Shown in pieces: positions 1,572 to 5,804 of a DNA stretch of 64,000 nucleotides; position 1 is the stretch's first letter, and each line of letters starts with the position of its first letter. Both the position numbers and the translations under genes were made by a program. Under the pieces are notes generated by a model. The model did no database searches. It was given only the letters and a program-made list of their open reading frames with translations, and was not told where the DNA came from. This stretch comes from Flavobacterium inviolabile. GTDB lineage: Bacteria; Bacteroidota; Bacteroidia; Flavobacteriales; Flavobacteriaceae. The stretch is taken from the NCBI RefSeq assembly GCF_013389455.1, contig NZ_CP058278.1, positions 2,852,001 through 2,916,000 on the forward strand, in the 5' to 3' direction.

Positions 1572-2117
1572 TTATTGCTTTAAGCACCAATACAGGATCT
1601 TGGCAATATTTTTGGCATCGTCCACACCACGGTGATGGGTTCCTTCCAGCGGAATATCCAGGATGCTTAAAGCGCCATTCATACCGGTAGGTTTTTGCAA
1701 ACCTCTGGTTTCGGCAAAGAGTACTTTAACATTGATATGCTCCGCTCCCATAGGGTAATCCAGATTGAACCGGGCACATTGTTTCTTTAGCATGTTCAGG
1801 TCGTAGGCTCCATAACTCGCCCAGGTGTATTCTTTTGGATCATACTGTTCCGTAAGTTTTTCCAACGCTTCCGCAAACGGAATTCCTTTTTGTTCCAGCA
1901 AATCCTGGGTAATTGTTGTTAATTCCGTACAAAACGCACTTACAGCGGAATGTTGCGGCTTTATTAAAATCCCCTGATTCTTCGTTATTTCACTGGTATG
2001 GCTATCCAGCACGCAAATCCCGATTTCAATAATTTCATTTTCCTGTCCGGCCGGAACCGGTCCCTGCCAGCATGTGGCTTCTAAATCTATAATGATAATT
2101 TTAGCTGTTGTTTTCAT
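1572..2117 (-). CDS. DEDDh-type 3'-5' exonuclease (ERI-1/KapD-like)
   Basis: A 181-aa single-domain exonuclease. The first motif is IIDLEATCW with Asp11 and Glu13, a middle Asp lies in YGAYDLN, and the last motif HRGVDDAKN has His162 and Asp167, which makes it the DEDDh class. The closest pattern is the ERI-1/KapD group of RNA-directed exonucleases, so a structured-RNA substrate is plausible but not shown. A terminator separates it from the slipin gene upstream on the same strand, so it is probably transcribed separately from the tRNA-like cassette, although its position beside an RNA cassette is suggestive. Confidence 0.85.
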   Translation of the reverse strand: MKTTAKIIIIDLEATCWQGPVPAGQENEIIEIGICVLDSHTSEITKNQGILIKPQHSAVSAFCTELTTITQDLLEQKGIPFAEALEKLTEQYDPKEYTWASYGAYDLNMLKKQCARFNLDYPMGAEHINVKVLFAETRGLQKPTGMNGALSILDIPLEGTHHRGVDDAKNIAKILYWCLKQ

Positions 2118-2126
2118 TTTTTATCT

Positions 2127-2161
2127 TTTTAAAAACTACGGATACCCTACCCGTAGTTTTG
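2127..2161 (-). terminator. Rho-independent terminator after the slipin gene
   Basis: Inverted repeat AAAACTACGG / CCGTAGTTTT (2132-2141 with 2151-2160), followed on the minus strand by a T-rich tract. It begins next to the slipin stop codon and closes the minus-strand cassette that starts near 5550. Confidence 0.75.
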
Positions 2162-3259
2162 TTATTTTACAAAGATGTCTTTCAACTGACCAATGATGTT
2201 ACCGCTGCCGGAAATGGTGATCTCACCAATTTTATCCGCAATTTTTTCAACGTATTCCATCTCTTTCAATTTCCATAACATCTCATTTTCTTCCATTAAT
2301 TTGGCAGTATTCAATAAACTGCGCGTTGCTGCCGTTTCTTCACGTCGCATGATGCTGTTTGCCTGTGCTTTTTTCTCGGCCACCAATACCTGGTTCATGA
2401 TTTCCTTCATATCGCCCGGTAAGATCACATCGCGGATACCGGCATCGGAAACCGTTAAGCCCAACTCACTTATTCTGGCTGCTGTTTCCTGCAAGATAAT
2501 TTCGGCAATGGCATCCTTTTTATTCAATAATTCATCCAGGGTCAAACTTCCCACAAAAGCACGCAATGCCAACTGCATCATAATATACAATTGTTTTTCG
2601 GTATCTTTATTAATAACCAATGCTTTAATAATATCGGTTATCTGATAACGTACAAAAAAATTAATGCGTAAGGCCGCTTTATCTCTCGTTAATAATTCCT
2701 GACCGGAGATCTCCATTTGTTGCTGGCGGACATCGATTGTCCGTACTTCTACAGTGGTATTATTCTTCCAGAAATAATGCATTCCAGCTGTCAATTCTTT
2801 GATGAACACACCGTTAATATACAACAATGCTTTTTCATGGCTCAAAACCAAAAAGCGGCGTACATAATTGCTGATGCGGATGTTGTCCAATAAAGTTATC
2901 GGAACAGCTTCTGTAATATCCACTTTGGATAAATCGACCGTAATAAATTCCCGTTTGATAAAACCTTTCCAAAAGGCATAACGGCCGGCTGTCATTACTT
3001 CTTTAAAGTTACCGTTTTCAAATTGCAATACAATCTGATCATCAGCTACTTCAACAACCGTTAACATAGCTGCCAATACTTCATTCTGCATGATATAATT
3101 TAATTCATACTGGGAATGAAAGGCAGTATTGTTATCGTAAATAACCACTTCCTTATTACCGAAAATCCAGTAAGAACCTTCCTGTAATACCTGAATCAAT
3201 TTCTGATTCTGGAAAACCAAAGCGGTTTGTAAAGCTTTAATATGTATTTTTTTTAACAT
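2162..3259 (-). CDS. Slipin / band-7 (SPFH domain) family protein
   Basis: A 365-aa protein. I chose the ATG at 3259 (MLKKIHIKALQ) over the longer frame from 3427, because the extra 56 residues are basic and low-complexity and run through a hairpin-rich RNA region. The N-terminal 170 residues form two similar beta-rich repeats (QEGSYWIFGNKEVVIYD, then TAGRYAFWKGF and TAGMHYFWKN). A band-7 core follows (VRTIDVRQQQMEISGQELLTRDKAALRINF), then an alanine- and glutamate-rich helical tail with the typical LPGDMKEIMNQV segment. It lacks the usual N-terminal membrane hairpin, so it may be peripheral. Slipins occur in bacterial RNA-repair operons, which fits the tRNA-like array directly upstream. Confidence 0.85.
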   Translation of the reverse strand: MLKKIHIKALQTALVFQNQKLIQVLQEGSYWIFGNKEVVIYDNNTAFHSQYELNYIMQNEVLAAMLTVVEVADDQIVLQFENGNFKEVMTAGRYAFWKGFIKREFITVDLSKVDITEAVPITLLDNIRISNYVRRFLVLSHEKALLYINGVFIKELTAGMHYFWKNNTTVEVRTIDVRQQQMEISGQELLTRDKAALRINFFVRYQITDIIKALVINKDTEKQLYIMMQLALRAFVGSLTLDELLNKKDAIAEIILQETAARISELGLTVSDAGIRDVILPGDMKEIMNQVLVAEKKAQANSIMRREETAATRSLLNTAKLMEENEMLWKLKEMEYVEKIADKIGEITISGSGNIIGQLKDIFVK

Positions 3260-3454
3260 AACTGTATTTTTTAAATTTTTAAATCTTTTTAATAAAAACG
3301 ATGGCCGTTGTTTCCTGAAAAGGACGGAAAACAAGTGGTTTACAGATCCGCAGGAATGGTTTATGGCTATATTTCTTTTCCTAAAAAAAGAGCAAACAAT
3401 AAAGCAAATCTGTTTTTCCATAAACAAAGCCTGATCTCAGGTCTTGTCAGGAAT

Positions 3455-3484
3455 GTGATTATCGACATTGCAGGCAATAATCAC
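3455..3484 (-). ncRNA. Hairpin of the tRNA-like array (possible anticodon-arm relic)
   Basis: A near-perfect 10-bp stem, GTGATTATTG paired with CGATAATCAC (one G-U), encloses a 10-nt loop that contains CTGCAAT. If the loop is closed one pair further it resembles an anticodon loop with GCA (Cys), but this needs a bulge. It is the last strong hairpin before the slipin gene. The hairpin is certain; reading it as a tRNA relic is tentative. Confidence 0.4.
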
Positions 3485-3510
3485 CAACAAGGGCACAATC
3501 GTTTTCTGGT

Positions 3511-3529
3511 GCATTTTTTAGAGAAATGC
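3511..3529 (-). ncRNA. Anticodon-arm-like hairpin with CUA anticodon
   Basis: A six-pair stem GCATTT/AAATGC holds the 7-nt loop CTCTAAA. With C32 and U33 in place the anticodon would be CUA, which reads the UAG stop codon, and A37/A38 are the usual flanking bases. No convincing D- or T-arm frames it, so it is an isolated anticodon-type hairpin inside the array rather than a full suppressor tRNA. Confidence 0.4.
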
Positions 3530-3541
3530 CAACTCGGTCTC

Positions 3542-3602
3542 ACAGACTTTTGGCCTGTAACAAAAACTACATTAGAAGTGTAGTACTCAACCGGACGAGC
3601 TA
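3542..3602 (-). ncRNA. tRNA-like unit with Arg(UCU)-type anticodon
   Basis: Read on the minus strand: TA, then a D-arm (GCTC-GTCCGGTT-GAGT, loop with GG), one base, then a perfect anticodon arm CTACA-CTTCTAA-TGTAG. The D-arm, base 26 and anticodon arm have exact tRNA geometry, and the anticodon is UCU. Downstream is a 5-bp arm ACAGG-CCAAAAG-TCTGT in the T-arm position, but its loop lacks the TTCRA consensus. There is no acceptor stem. Instead a short hairpin (3604-3617) abuts its 5' side. Confidence 0.6.
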
Positions 3603-3603
3603 A

Positions 3604-3617
3604 CGTATGTAAATACG
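3604..3617 (-). ncRNA. Linker hairpin between two tRNA-like units
   Basis: CGTAT-TTAC-ATACG, a 5-bp stem with a 4-nt loop, directly abuts the T-arm of the preceding unit (3618) and lies two bases before the D-arm of the next. It occupies the place where a 3' acceptor strand of one tRNA and a 5' acceptor strand of the next would lie. Confidence 0.6.
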
Positions 3618-3680
3618 CAGGGATTCGAACCCTTTTAAATGAAACAAGTCCCCTAAACTTGTGCGATTACCAATTTCGCA
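3618..3680 (-). ncRNA. tRNA-like unit with AGG anticodon, consensus T-loop
   Basis: Minus strand order: D-arm TGCG-AAATTGGTAAT-CGCA (3680-3662, GG in the loop), anticodon arm CAAGT-TTAGGGG-ACTTG (3661-3645), a 10-nt variable region, then a T-arm AAGGG-TTCGAAT-CCCTG with a perfect consensus T-loop. The 7-nt anticodon loop gives AGG, a Pro-type anticodon with G37. No acceptor stem can be formed from the flanks. Hairpins replace it on both sides. Confidence 0.65.
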
Positions 3681-3681
3681 A

Positions 3682-3697
3682 TTCCGTTTAACCGGAA
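3682..3697 (-). ncRNA. Linker hairpin between two tRNA-like units
   Basis: TTCCG-GTTAAA-CGGAA, a 5-bp stem with a 6-nt loop. It sits immediately after a T-arm (3698) and one base before the next D-arm (3680), which is the same layout as the hairpin at 3604-3617. Confidence 0.6.
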
Positions 3698-3742
3698 GCA
3701 GGACTCGAACCTGCAATTCATTGCTGCTTTTTTGGAAAACAG
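3698..3742 (-). ncRNA. Partial tRNA-like unit: anticodon-like arm plus perfect T-arm
   Basis: The T-arm GCAGG-TTCGAGT-CCTGC (3714-3698) is fully consensus with five pairs. Upstream, a 6-bp stem at 3742-3724 closes the 7-nt loop TCCAAAA, from which CAA (Leu) or, with a shifted stem, CCA (Trp) could be read. U33 is absent in the first reading. A D-arm is not recognisable further upstream, although weaker hairpins with 7-nt loops occur at 3773-3789 and 3901-3919. Confidence 0.5.
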
Positions 3743-3772
3743 TAAAACCTTCAAATCAAGTTGTACAATAAA

Positions 3773-3919
3773 ACTTAATACCGCTAAGCAAAGTATATTG
3801 CAATGGTGCTATACCGAAACACACAACAGGACTTGTCTGATATTTTTAAAATGTGTTTTAAACGTTGTCATGTATTACCGGACAAAGATTTCAACACAAC
3901 TACGCAGTATATGTGCGTA
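3773..3919 (-). ncRNA. Further 7-nt-loop hairpins upstream of the tRNA-like array
   Basis: Two hairpins lie between the ATP-grasp stop codon and the clearer tRNA-like units: TACGCA-CATATAC-TGCGTA at 3901-3919 and GCTTA-GCGGTAT-TAAGT at 3773-3789 (one G-U pair). Both have 7-nt loops but neither has U33, so they are weaker candidates for anticodon-arm relics. Otherwise this stretch holds no gene that I can support. Confidence 0.3.
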
Positions 3920-3937
3920 TATAAATATTTTTTCAAA

Positions 3938-4729
3938 TTATTTTTTAATCCACGCAATAACAGTGTGTAAATATGTTAATCTGACGGATTCAAACCGGGT
4001 GATATTCGGAATATGGTTTACTTCCAGTAAATATTTTGTTCCGTTATCCCCGAGGATATAATCGTTTCCAATCATGTCCATCCGGAGTTTTTCCATCAGC
4101 TGTTTCGAATCTTCCAACAGTTCCGGATCGACCGGCATAAAGCAGGCTTCATCCGGATGTATCGATTTTAGCCAGGTTGCTCCTTCGAGCTTTATCTGCC
4201 AGGCTTCGGTACCGATAATCATGATCCGGACAGCCTCACCGCTAAAGAAAGGCTCAATCACGGAAGCTTCCTCACTTTTCCAGTATCCTGAAAAACGGTG
4301 TTTGTTTTCCCCGCAGTGCCAGTTGCCCCATTTTGCCACGGTATCCGTTTGAGTATCCATCTCGGTATCTTCCGAAATAAACCCTCTGGGTGAACTAAAA
4401 CGGGAATACTGCATTGCTTTTACCAGGCACGGAATCTTTAGCCGGCAATCCATCATGCCAAGGGCATTTGGGAAACAATCGCCTCCCCATAGCGCCAGAC
4501 CGGTTATAAAATCGAAATCGTTTTCATAAATTCCATAGTACACCACTTTGTCAATGGGCAGCATCCCTACTCCGGTTTGTTTTTCCATAAACAGCGTTCC
4601 GTCTTTGATCAGTATTTTCGGTGTGGCTTGATGCCAGACGATATGGCCCTGGTAATTCGCCTGTATAATGTCGTATTCTTCCGGTTCAATCCCCACTAAG
4701 GCTATCCGGTTGTATAACAGCTTATCCAT
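3938..4729 (-). CDS. ATP-grasp domain protein (possibly R2K clade)
   Basis: A 263-aa protein with an ATP-grasp-type C-terminal half. Motifs are a basic/aromatic patch KWGNWH, then IEPFFSGEAVRIMIIG with the conserved Glu and Arg, and GNDYILGDNGTKYLLEVNHIPNITRF, where the Glu-Val-Asn is the usual metal-binding signature. The N-terminal half is probably a pre-ATP-grasp domain. ATP-grasp enzymes ligate a carboxylate to an amine or thiol through an acyl-phosphate. The substrate here is unknown. The start overlaps the 106-aa ORF by 8 bp, which implies translational coupling. From memory, a clade named R2K was described in RNA-repair and conflict neighbourhoods; membership is inferred from context and needs a profile search. 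Confidence 0.65.
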   Translation of the reverse strand: MDKLLYNRIALVGIEPEEYDIIQANYQGHIVWHQATPKILIKDGTLFMEKQTGVGMLPIDKVVYYGIYENDFDFITGLALWGGDCFPNALGMMDCRLKIPCLVKAMQYSRFSSPRGFISEDTEMDTQTDTVAKWGNWHCGENKHRFSGYWKSEEASVIEPFFSGEAVRIMIIGTEAWQIKLEGATWLKSIHPDEACFMPVDPELLEDSKQLMEKLRMDMIGNDYILGDNGTKYLLEVNHIPNITRFESVRLTYLHTVIAWIKK

Positions 4730-5042
4730 GGTACATCCGTTTTAAATGTTCCTGATCCCGTCTGCCTGCCTGTCCTAAAGAACTTCCGTTGCAATAGCCA
4801 ATATTTACAAAATCGTTTTCTTCGGTAATGATCGATTCTTTCCGGGTAACGGCTCCGGTATATCCGGAACCGTAATTGCCGGTAATTTTTTTGGTAGCCG
4901 GATCCACATTACCCCATTCCGGCGTTTTTCCATTGTAAAGCGGCTCCACAAAATAGATGATTCCTGTTTTTCCTGATTTCATTAAAAATCTTTCTGTTTC
5001 ATCAGTATTGGTTAAAAACCTTTTTAAAATGTCTGGTCTCAT
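4722..5042 (-). CDS. Orphan 106-aa protein of the tRNA-like cassette
   Basis: I do not recognise this protein. It is 106 aa, with no signal peptide and no membrane segment. A central Gly-rich stretch (ITGNYGSGYTGAVTR) and one Cys stand out. It starts 35 bp after the tRNA-Phe-like gene and overlaps the ATP-grasp gene by 8 bp, so the two are almost certainly co-translated. It could be the substrate or partner of the ATP-grasp enzyme; nothing in the sequence proves this. Confidence 0.6.
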   Translation of the reverse strand: MRPDILKRFLTNTDETERFLMKSGKTGIIYFVEPLYNGKTPEWGNVDPATKKITGNYGSGYTGAVTRKESIITEENDFVNIGYCNGSSLGQAGRRDQEHLKRMYHG

Positions 5043-5077
5043 AGCGTACCTTTTTTAAATTAAACTTCATTTTATTG

Positions 5078-5150
5078 TGGAACGGATCCGAATTGAACGA
5101 ATACCTTCTGCGCTTCAGGCAGACGTGCACACCGGGTACACCACCATTCC
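5078..5150 (-). tRNA. Divergent tRNA-Phe-like gene (anticodon GAA)
   Basis: A 73-nt cloverleaf with all parts. The acceptor GGAATGG pairs with CCGTTCC (7 bp, one G-U). The D-arm is GTGT-ACCCGGTGT-GCAC, the anticodon arm TCTGC-CTGAAGC-GCAGA with GAA, the variable loop 4 nt, and the T-arm ATTCG-TTCAATT-CGGAT. The discriminator is A, as expected for Phe, and CCA is not encoded. The D-arm differs from the common GCTC/GAGC form and A21 is missing, so it may be a specialised or decoy tRNA rather than the housekeeping copy. Confidence 0.65.
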
Positions 5151-5154
5151 GGCT

Positions 5155-5199
5155 GACTTTATGAGATTTCCGAGAGACAGTCGGAAATCCCAATAAGTC
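5155..5199 (-). ncRNA. Long hairpin with anticodon-like 7-nt loop (GTC)
   Basis: An 11-bp stem (GGGATTTCCGA with TCGGAAATCTC, one G-U) extends through a second paired block GACTTAT/ATAAAGTC. The 7-nt loop CTGTCTC would give the anticodon GUC (Asp). It lies between tRNA-Asn and the tRNA-Phe-like gene with only 4 bp to the latter. No T-run follows, so it is not a terminator. The structure is certain and the function unknown. Confidence 0.5.
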
Positions 5200-5222
5200 C
5201 GGTTCCTTTCTAAGAACTCCTG

Positions 5223-5295
5223 CGATTCCGGAAGGATTCGAACCTTCAACCTATTGATTAACAGTCAAGCGCTCTGCCAATTGAGCTACAGAATC
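5223..5295 (-). tRNA. tRNA-Asn (GTT)
   Basis: A 73-nt standard cloverleaf. The acceptor GATTCTG/CGGAATC pairs fully with one G-U. The D-arm is GCTC-AATTGGCA-GAGC, the anticodon loop CTGTTAA (GTT), and the T-arm GAAGG-TTCGAAT-CCTTC. The discriminator is G. CCA is not encoded. One terminal pair of the anticodon stem is mismatched (C-U). The other identity elements agree with Asn. It is the first and most canonical RNA of the cassette. Confidence 0.85.
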
Positions 5296-5308
5296 TTTTG
5301 TAAGGGCA

Positions 5309-5335
5309 TAAAAAAAGCACCTTGTATAAGGTGCT
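5309..5335 (-). terminator. Rho-independent terminator between the 40-aa ORF and tRNA-Asn
   Basis: Perfect hairpin AGCACCTT-ATAC-AAGGTGCT (minus strand) followed by a run of T residues. It lies 34 bp past the 40-aa ORF stop and 14 bp before tRNA-Asn. No promoter is visible between it and the tRNA, so downstream expression may depend on readthrough. Confidence 0.8.
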
Positions 5336-5369
5336 CATCAATTGTATAAGATTATCATGATCTTATGCA

Positions 5370-5492
5370 TTATGGATACACCCGTATTCGCTGAAAGTCA
5401 AATCCAGTAAGAGGATTGCTTCCGATAGTATTTTTTACTGAATTGAAATTCATTTGTAATAGTGTTTTATATGTTGCCTGTATTCTTGTCAT
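5370..5492 (-). CDS. 40-aa small protein of unknown function
   Basis: ATG at 5492, TAA at 5370-5372, product beginning MTRIQATYKTLLQ and ending RIRVYP. A strong TAnnTTTG promoter ends 23 bp upstream and a terminator follows the stop, so it forms a self-contained unit. There is no Shine-Dalgarno, which is normal in Bacteroidetes. I do not recognise the family. It weakly resembles the 36-aa ORF next to it (SN..L.G.DF...R..Y). It could be a leader ORF for the tRNA cassette. Confidence 0.5.
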   Translation of the reverse strand: MTRIQATYKTLLQMNFNSVKNTIGSNPLTGFDFQRIRVYP

Positions 5493-5515
5493 TGTTGTGC
5501 TGTAATTTTCTGCTG

Positions 5516-5547
5516 CAAAGATAAAGTTGAATTTTTCAACCGTGCAA
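5516..5547 (-). promoter_or_regulatory. Bacteroidetes-type promoter for the 40-aa ORF and possibly the tRNA cassette
   Basis: The -7 element TATCTTTG (5523-5516) matches TAnnTTTG exactly. A TTG lies about 21 bp upstream (5547-5545). The predicted transcription start is near 5509, which gives a leader of about 17 nt before the 40-aa ORF. Confidence 0.65.
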
Positions 5548-5804
5548 GTATTTTTTAATTTATTTTTCTGATTATCAAATAGTTATATATAATTTTAAAG
5601 CAAAGCAATCCCTGTCCGCTAACGAAAGCGGTTTACTATTTTTCTCAAATGGCTGTCTCTCATCTGATTACTGTTCAAGGCTATTTAGGGCTATTATGAT
5701 AATTCATTAAACATTTTTTTTCATTTTTTTATTCGGAATTCCATTCCGTAACTGTTTTTAACTGTTTTTCGCTGTTTGCAGCAACCTTTTTTGCATATCT
5801 GCAA
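5548..5804. other. AT-rich intergenic stretch without a recognised gene
   Basis: About 250 bp between the promoter of the 40-aa ORF and the terminator of the 36-aa ORF. It contains a small hairpin (CCGCTaacgaaAGCGG near 5616-5631) and T-rich runs. I see no ORF, tRNA or repeat that I can support. Confidence 0.5.

Follow-up and report, generated by a model that had tools for sequence, protein, structure and literature searches.

A tRNA array, a tRNA-mimic RNA and a slipin gene behind an attenuator-like leader: a candidate tRNA-loss response operon of Flavobacteriales

The chromosome of Flavobacterium inviolabile (3.9 Mb, a single contig, NZ_CP058278.1) carries a compact unit of tRNA-like, structured RNA and protein genes that ends in slipin. 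It lies on the minus strand of a 64,000-nucleotide (nt) stretch, positions 2,852,001 to 2,916,000, which is called the window here and numbered from its first letter. From 5669 down to 2132 the unit comprises an upstream block, a promoter-like site, a short open reading frame (ORF), a terminator, RNAs, ORF106, ORF263, a structured RNA, slipin and a closing hairpin. Flavobacteriales conserve an operon of this kind, of which the locus is a reduced copy, and the nearest named slipin relatives of the window genome are Flavobacterium. Comparative sequence analysis suggests, with a probability that we put at roughly 0.6, an attenuator-controlled, stress-inducible operon that would answer tRNA loss with spare tRNAs and repair functions.

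The slipin operon and its relatives

The features of the locus, with the evidence for each, are:

5611..5669, minus strand: conserved upstream block with two hairpins, one of ATGA-GAGACAG-TCAT type and one CCGCT..AGCGG (leader alignments)
5646-5661, minus strand: first hairpin of the upstream block, GAGAGACAGCCATTTG (sequence)
5516..5523, minus strand: promoter-like -7 site TATCTTTG, with CTTG 21 bases upstream (sequence; conserved in the leader alignment)
5370..5492, minus strand: leader ORF, 40 amino acids (aa) plus stop, overlapping an anti-terminator-like arm, GGGTGT (sequence)
5310..5336, minus strand: intrinsic terminator GAGCACC..GGTGCTTTTTTT before the first tRNA, the putative attenuator terminator (sequence)
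5222..5295, minus strand: array tRNA-Asn(GTT) (RF00005, 71.9 bits)
5155..5200, minus strand: hairpin remnant of a tRNA-Asp, with the array-type anticodon loop GACTGTCTCTC retained (read by eye)
5077..5150, minus strand: divergent array tRNA-Phe(GAA)-like gene, anticodon loop CTGAAGC (G37) (RF00005, 52.4 bits)
4722..5042, minus strand: ORF106, uncharacterised protein family (ORF; homologue search)
3938..4729, minus strand: ORF263, RimK/synapsin-type ATP-grasp protein (hhalign 93.7%; mean model confidence, pLDDT, 92.6)
3560..3845, minus strand: slipin-linked structured RNA (alignment, covariation, covariance model; weak YrlA match)
2162..3259, minus strand: slipin (SPFH/Band_7), 365 aa (Band_7 89 bits, cut-off 23.6)
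2132..2160, minus strand: hairpin and T run directly 3' of slipin, closing the unit (read from sequence)
1572..2117, minus strand: RNase_T-type 3'-5' exonuclease (exoA), a frequent slipin neighbour (profile match)

An initial annotation made from the sequence alone had described the tRNA-Asn gene, the tRNA-Phe-like gene, the overlap of ORF106 with ORF263 (4722-5042 and 3938-4729), slipin and the closing hairpin on this strand, and all were recovered in place. The leader (5310-5523, with promoter-like site, 40-aa ORF and terminator) and the tRNA-Asp hairpin (5155-5200) are additions to it. The window array is small, consisting of the tRNA-Asn, the Phe-like tRNA and the tRNA-Asp hairpin with no ligase adjoining, and its two tRNAs fall short of the many genes at high density that define a tRNA array unit; a relative, L019, reaches that definition with 16 of its 17 tRNAs in one cluster (L and G numbers are our labels for loci and genomes).

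Slipin matches at E < 1e-70 occur in 31 of 246 genomes of the order, its own included, and ORF263 matches in 10 of 150, again with its own genome included and two of the ten weak and partial. Gene neighbourhoods were compared over 80 named slipin loci, the best 80 of 393 candidates from a contig search, which come mostly from Flavobacterium and Chryseobacterium with two metagenome-assembled genomes labelled otherwise. The recurrent order in relatives is a tRNA array of up to 16 tRNAs per cluster, followed by repair genes and then slipin, and its conservation together with tRNA-like RNAs removes the concern that the arrangement might be confined to a single genome. No tRNA was called by ARAGORN between 7.6 and 0.56 kb before slipin in 25 of the 80 loci, some contigs ending within that stretch; in L207 and L214 the arrays lie farther upstream. 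In one Flavobacterium locus (L014 2793-6588), two large ORFs that look by eye like an NTPase and a TPR protein stand between tRNA genes upstream of the array and were matched in 1 of the 80 loci.

Neighbours were counted on the slipin strand within 10 kb on either side, some contigs ending earlier. Exonucleases were the most frequent (40/80 with the exoA query and 39/80 with exoB, two queries that cross-match), with a phosphoesterase in 20 or 25 loci depending on the query, ORF106 in 19, ORF263 in 16, an RNase H-like protein in 15, an Rnl2 ligase and cREC in 13 each, an RLIG1-like ligase in 12 and an R2K_3 ATP-grasp protein in 5. Family assignments were made for Rnl2 (TIGR02307, 1e-61), cREC (PF20274, 1.4e-20), R2K_3 (1.1e-23) and RLIG1 (8.2e-8). 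The presence of tRNA arrays, both ligases, cREC, phosphoesterase and exonucleases beside slipin in relatives agrees with the RNA-damage context first proposed for the locus, as does RtcB, which adjoins the slipin/RNA pair in two relatives: the G186 contig reads RtcB end, slipin-linked RNA, slipin, and in G063 an RtcB match begins approximately 0.6 kb after slipin. RtcB is present in 18 of 20 relatives, and in 8 of the 20 (G063, G077, G088, G152, G154, G160, G186, and G297) its coordinates fall no more than about 30 kb from slipin. It is missing from the window, as initially reported; the window genome has two rtcB loci, approximately 1 Mb away. The first comes with what we take to be two nucleotidyltransferase-like ORFs, and in the second (L120 9456-12226, at ~1.856 Mb) RtcB is followed by an ORF that is presumably a PrfH-like release factor.

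Among the proteins of the unit, slipin is the most readily placed, its alignment being matched by stomatin chains in the PDB (best E 8.9e-20); in PADLOC, PHROGs, and NCBIfam it gave sub-threshold HflK/HflC, phrog_200 and PDC-S64 matches and nothing above threshold. ORF106 and ORF263 gave nothing credible in the same three collections. ORF106 has 56 homologues with no Pfam domain, the few that carry an organism name being Flavobacterium, and its fold models (best mean pLDDT 82.3, the other four 58-63) were not used. ORF263 aligned at 93.7% (hhalign, E 1.9e-7, 211 columns) with a protein of RimK/synapsin type, itself matching Synapsin_C at 5.9e-13 and the RimK family at 1e-14, below the RimK cut-off. 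The 25 members of the ORF263 family gave weak Pfam matches to TTL (4), Ddl (2) and RimK (2), and some homologues are annotated as RimK-type ATP-grasp; a search of the ORF263 profile against solved structures gave nothing useful. Its earlier placement in the R2K clade was abandoned, there being no R2K match in ORF263 or the 25 family members and an hhalign probability of 0.3% against one R2K_3 protein.

The leader and its codons

Leaders were read in 103 loci, named and unnamed copies of the same places included. The leader pattern was found in 76 of these, or 67 distinct leaders because the 103 loci hold the same places twice, and in 53 of the 80 named loci a promoter-like site, a short ORF and a terminator precede the first tRNA. 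When aligned, the leaders share the upstream block, the promoter-like site (the Bacteroidetes promoter -7 consensus is TAnnTTTG) and the terminator before the first tRNA. ARAGORN calls a first tRNA behind 62 of the distinct leaders; the leader T run is never more than 220 nt away from it, and in 45 of the 62 the distance is at most 30 nt. An arm complementary to the 5' arm of the terminator is found 40-60 nt before the terminator in 63 of 67 distinct leaders, and in 62 of 67 the ORF overlaps that arm, stopping 10-32 nt after its start and mostly 22-28 nt from the terminator arm. These 62 leaders, in which the ORF extends across the pairing partner of the terminator 5' arm and the terminator stands ahead of the genes, have the anatomy of a ribosome-mediated attenuator.

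Covariation was assessed after leaving out the four leaders with distances outside 40-60 nt and three duplicates. Across the remaining 60, the terminator helix has 16 cells with two-sided changes against 4.0 in shuffles, a value reached in 0 of 500, and in the anti-terminator helix, which has no excess of two-sided changes, 92.5% of cells are paired as opposed to 21-63% when the arms are slid. One lineage (L063 and L065) has another but still complementary pair, AAGGAGAT with ATCTCCTT. Placement of leader, terminator and ORF is retained across two families.

The codons of the leader ORFs correspond to the tRNAs that follow. In a table of 22 codon boxes, to which isoacceptors were limited, leader codons match array isoacceptors in 342 of 348 locus-isoacceptor pairs, the misses being Trp (3), Thr (2) and Arg-ACG (1), whereas permuting arrays between loci gave a mean of 89.1% and a maximum of 94.3% in 2000 permutations. 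By amino acid the match is 339/344 over 57 loci, compared with 92.4% for permuted arrays, 79% and 74% in the two wrong frames and 80% with shuffled nucleotides. Flavobacterium-type leaders match in 172 of 172 cases against 95.7% when permuted (0/2000). Arg CGN codons occur in 17 of 18 leaders with a tRNA-Arg(ACG) and in 19 of 39 without (Fisher p 0.0009, uncorrected). Attenuators of amino-acid operons are likewise built from a leader ORF, an anti-terminator arm that the ribosome covers and a terminator ahead of the genes they control; unlike these, the present leader codes for nearly the whole downstream tRNA set and not for one amino acid.

Array tRNAs and the slipin-linked RNA

The array tRNA-Asn and tRNA-Phe differ strongly from the two housekeeping tRNA-Asn and two tRNA-Phe of the window genome. 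Position 37 (N37) was surveyed in 314 distinct array tRNAs from 56 loci with the housekeeping tRNAs of the window genome as reference, counting each sequence once and taking only 7-nt loops and tRNAs farther than 560 nt from slipin. N37 is changed in all Asp (24/24, U for housekeeping A), Pro (29/29, A for G), Gln-TTG (16/16, A for G) and Glu (16/16, U or G for A) tRNAs and in 15 of 16 Arg-ACG (A for G), and is mixed in Leu-TAG (13/29 changed), His (10/29) and Phe (11/24). With the exception of Phe, the changed set mostly reads codons beginning with C or G. The housekeeping Asp and Pro tRNAs of a second genome (G134), examined as a control over 30 loci of its 70 tRNA matches, have normal loops. 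Anticodon-loop changes in phage tRNAs have been proposed to evade anticodon nucleases (PMC10264068), and array tRNAs with a changed N37 may resist nuclease in the same way.

If the extra tRNAs instead boosted particular codons during normal growth, the attenuator would merely match supply to demand. For each array isoacceptor the window genome does contain only 1 to 4 housekeeping genes, but the same is true of the others; an altered N37 misfits simple duplication, and codon supply has no need of the RNA ligases, cREC and exonucleases beside the arrays. We regard such a function as very improbable.

The Asp anticodon loop recurs in other forms. Its sequence is retained without an ARAGORN tRNA-Asp in 18 of 67 distinct leader loci, and in seven such contexts (window, L174, L190, L197, L201, L212, and L228) it appears by eye as a bare hairpin, L174 having the outer stem only. 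The array-type Asp anticodon arm is also found in six viral contigs, three of them with tRNA-like surroundings by eye and no ARAGORN call there. As a separate observation, the upstream element GAGAGACAGTC holds an exact 11-nt complement of the array tRNA-Asp anticodon loop (window 5646-5661 against 5165-5189, both on the minus strand). In 39 of 67 distinct leaders no complementary match is longer than this one; in reversed-sequence controls the longest match measured 9-10 nt in 51 of 76 cases and 11-13 nt in 8, and 8 of the 67 leaders carry GAGTAACAGTC without a matching change. The 16-base pattern of the element has one mismatch-free occurrence in the window genome. It was rejected as a regulon marker there, with one exact and one 2-mismatch match compared with one in the control.

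Before slipin lies an RNA of approximately 280 nt that mimics tRNA. It consists of a 5' stem-junction domain, a tRNA-mimic module, a second T-arm and an anticodon-arm-like hairpin; in the module a T-arm, a capped acceptor hairpin and a D-arm follow one another, and the strand comes in at the anticodon-stem position. In an alignment of the window with 14 of 17 relatives (L171, L182, and L229 left out), 28 of 55 pairs show two-sided changes, none of 500 shuffles reaches the observed value in any of five covariation measures, and sliding leaves no more than 9 two-sided pairs. The segments had first been described as a series of defective tRNA-like units; the single structure and its two-sided changes rule out decayed tRNA genes and replace that description with one conserved RNA.

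A covariance model built from 18 of 40 spaced relatives judged alignable, the window excluded, scores the window segments at ~3560-3745 with 62 bits (E 4.4e-15). It also gives tandem tRNAs a weak score (window 5162-5338, E 6.3e-5), and ordinary tRNA clusters appear among its weaker matches. Across 148 genomes of the order, each of the ten best matches (E < 1e-13) is found immediately upstream of slipin, and each of the 15 strong-slipin genomes among the matches listed has, by coordinates, one upstream of slipin, a sixteenth (G199) not being among them. Ten of 246 genomes contain an exact copy of the RNA's 22-base 5' element, always upstream of slipin. A T-arm motif is present within 900 nt 5' of slipin in 79 of the 80 named loci, the one miss (L189) being a contig end. 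Matches at E 4e-13 to 6e-12 in G117:C35, G091:C1 and G106:C100 belong to a family in which slipin matches were weak, and may represent either plain tRNA clusters or a further tRNA-mimic RNA.

No Rfam 15 family reaches threshold in the window copy, and pieces of the RNA are called as tRNA above threshold in several of 16 relatives' loci. Its closest likeness is to the YrlA family (RF02553), whose tRNA-mimic architecture is described in PMC8394870. The T-arm, capped acceptor hairpin and D-arm stand in the same permuted order, with compensatory changes, and sub-threshold YrlA matches precede slipin in 16 of 16 loci tested (E up to 0.28, best 47.4 bits; window copy 25.3 bits, gathering score 69). 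In contrast to YrlA, the slipin-linked RNA has a second T-arm and a different 5' domain, no Ro60 partner was found for it, and it scores below the gathering score wherever tested. To judge from the alignment, it looks constrained and distantly YrlA-like. Sub-threshold matches to Flavo-1 (RF01705; 31-36 bits, cut-off 42) were noted in 3 of 16 loci, 170-250 nt before slipin (L029 1251-1325, L032 1249-1322, and L033 2764-2837), and Flavo-1 may be related to the 3' part of this RNA.

A phage- or plasmid-derived tRNA cluster that drifts in chromosomes, an anti-defence cassette decaying neutrally beside slipin by chance, would explain why array content varies, why 25 of the named loci lack a called tRNA in the stretch before slipin and why the Asp arm turns up in viral contigs. 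Moreover, a mycobacterial study describes the tRNA arrays of mobile elements as putative anti-defence systems (PMC12803027). Neutral decay sits poorly with a leader, terminator and ORF kept in place across two families, with the strong two-sided changes in the slipin-linked RNA and the near-constant T-arm motif before slipin, or with the failure to find the exact 22-base 5' element in viral contigs. Such an origin seems to us improbable.

Could the array tRNAs and the slipin-linked RNA act as a sponge, bound or cut by anticodon nucleases so that real tRNAs are spared and use in translation is unneeded? The slipin-linked RNA does mimic tRNA and has a capped acceptor arm, the Asp loop persists where ARAGORN calls no tRNA-Asp, and it has been suggested that the tRNA-like domain of YrlA could be a competitive nuclease inhibitor (Hughes et al., 2020; PMC7790460). 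Most array genes are nevertheless full cloverleaves by ARAGORN, a point qualified by array tRNA scores in G134 that run from 68.7 down to 29 bits and are generally below housekeeping. Bait would also be expected to preserve the loop that is targeted, whereas N37 is altered in Asp, Pro, Gln and Glu, and the match between leader and array isoacceptors is expected of replacement tRNAs and less of bait. A decoy as the function of the whole operon is thus unlikely. The initial proposal of an RNA-damage response or anti-nuclease decoy holds as to the damage context; a decoy role is conceivable, chiefly for the slipin-linked RNA, but does not best explain the tRNA array, the leader of which seems made to sense a shortage of tRNA.

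A possible response to tRNA loss

In the attenuator-controlled response proposed here, transcription would start at the TAnnTTTG site and a ribosome would translate the leader ORF. With all tRNAs available, the ribosome at the stop codon would cover the AGGTGC-like arm, the terminator would form and the array would remain off. Were a leader-coded tRNA cut or depleted, or translation blocked, the ribosome would stall upstream, the arm would pair with the terminator 5' arm and transcription would read into the array. The spare tRNAs, whose position 37 differs in chosen isoacceptors, would then be supplied, perhaps resistant to the nuclease, while ligases, end-processing enzymes and exonucleases, where present, would repair or clear fragments. 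Slipin would be made together with the tRNA-mimic RNA, which may hold a nuclease or exonuclease at the membrane or serve as a decoy; any roles of ORF106 and ORF263 in the response are likewise putative. A more specific form of this proposal is a multi-tRNA damage sensor, in which the leader reads, one codon at a time, whether every replaceable tRNA is intact, any failure releases altered-loop tRNAs and ligases, and beside it a Ro60-free Y-RNA-like mimic of a new class works with membrane slipin. This we hold tentatively, as having somewhat less than an even chance.

Several results weigh against the proposal. Covariation in the anti-terminator helix does not exceed that of shuffles (score 219/500, two-sided changes 257/500), the window pairing GGGTGT/GCACCT is no better than in shuffled leaders (p 0.425), and p 0.05 is reached singly by 34 of 67 leaders. 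Third-position bias in the leader ORF is modest (682 differences against 533 and 432) and the peptide sequence is weakly conserved, both as expected if codon content outweighs sequence. In Chryseobacterium-type leaders the codon match does not exceed permutation (142/145, p 0.26). The Arg(ACG) contrast is one of three same-amino-acid contrasts examined, and Leu(TAG) (32/32 with, 21/25 without) and Arg(TCT) (19/19 and 34/38) hardly discriminate; as the loci share ancestry, the codon-match counts are not independent draws. N37 is unchanged in Tyr (22/22), Asn (21/21), Lys (18/18), Cys-GCA (12/12), Trp (5/5) and Arg-TCT (19/20), and with so many array tRNAs of housekeeping type, resistance through N37 cannot be general. 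Finally, the Anabaena trn operon is under a repressor and not an attenuator, the words 'leader' and 'attenuat' being absent from the available text (PMC10272220).

That operon is nevertheless the closest functional precedent. It consists of a large array of additional tRNAs that stays silent during normal growth and is switched on by translation inhibitors (Wang et al., 2023; PMC10272220), and in the TrcR regulon it is repressed together with rtcB, the slipin-family gene alr0740 and alr3303, annotated as rimK (PMC10272220). The Anabaena genes are scattered and held by a repressor, whereas those of Flavobacteriales form one stretch behind an attenuator-like leader. The Salmonella rsr-yrlBA-rtcBA operon is similar in pairing a tRNA-mimic Y RNA with an answer to tRNA cleavage (Hughes et al., 2020; PMC7790460), and the RtcB beside the slipin/RNA pair in G186 and G063 adds to the likeness. 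It differs in that slipin stands in the place of Rsr, real tRNAs are included, RtcB is not in the window unit, and no Ro60/Rsr (TROVE) match was found in the window genome or in 19 of 20 relatives. The remaining relative has a TROVE gene adjoining a slipin-RNA-model match with RtcB nearby (G152:C1:835409-840589), about 30 kb from its slipin locus, possibly a classical Ro60/Y RNA/RtcB operon as a neighbour. Mycobacterial tRNA array units and phage tRNA clusters share the dense tRNA variants and changed anticodon arms (PMC12803027; PMC10264068); unlike them, the Flavobacteriales arrays are chromosomal, small, and tied to slipin, the RNA, repair enzymes and a dedicated leader.

No account of such an operon was found among the titles and abstracts listed, a set outside which most subscription papers fall; the multi-tRNA attenuator and the Ro60-free slipin RNA are the parts that may prove new. 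The role of chromosomal tRNA arrays, called unknown in the Mycobacterium avium array study (PMC12803027), would become testable if the proposal is correct. Arrays, RNA-repair operons and Y RNAs, which in bacteria are usually studied apart, would become linked, and Flavobacteriales would possess a simple route to sense tRNA cleavage without a protein sensor and, with it, a built-in answer to tRNA-cutting toxins.

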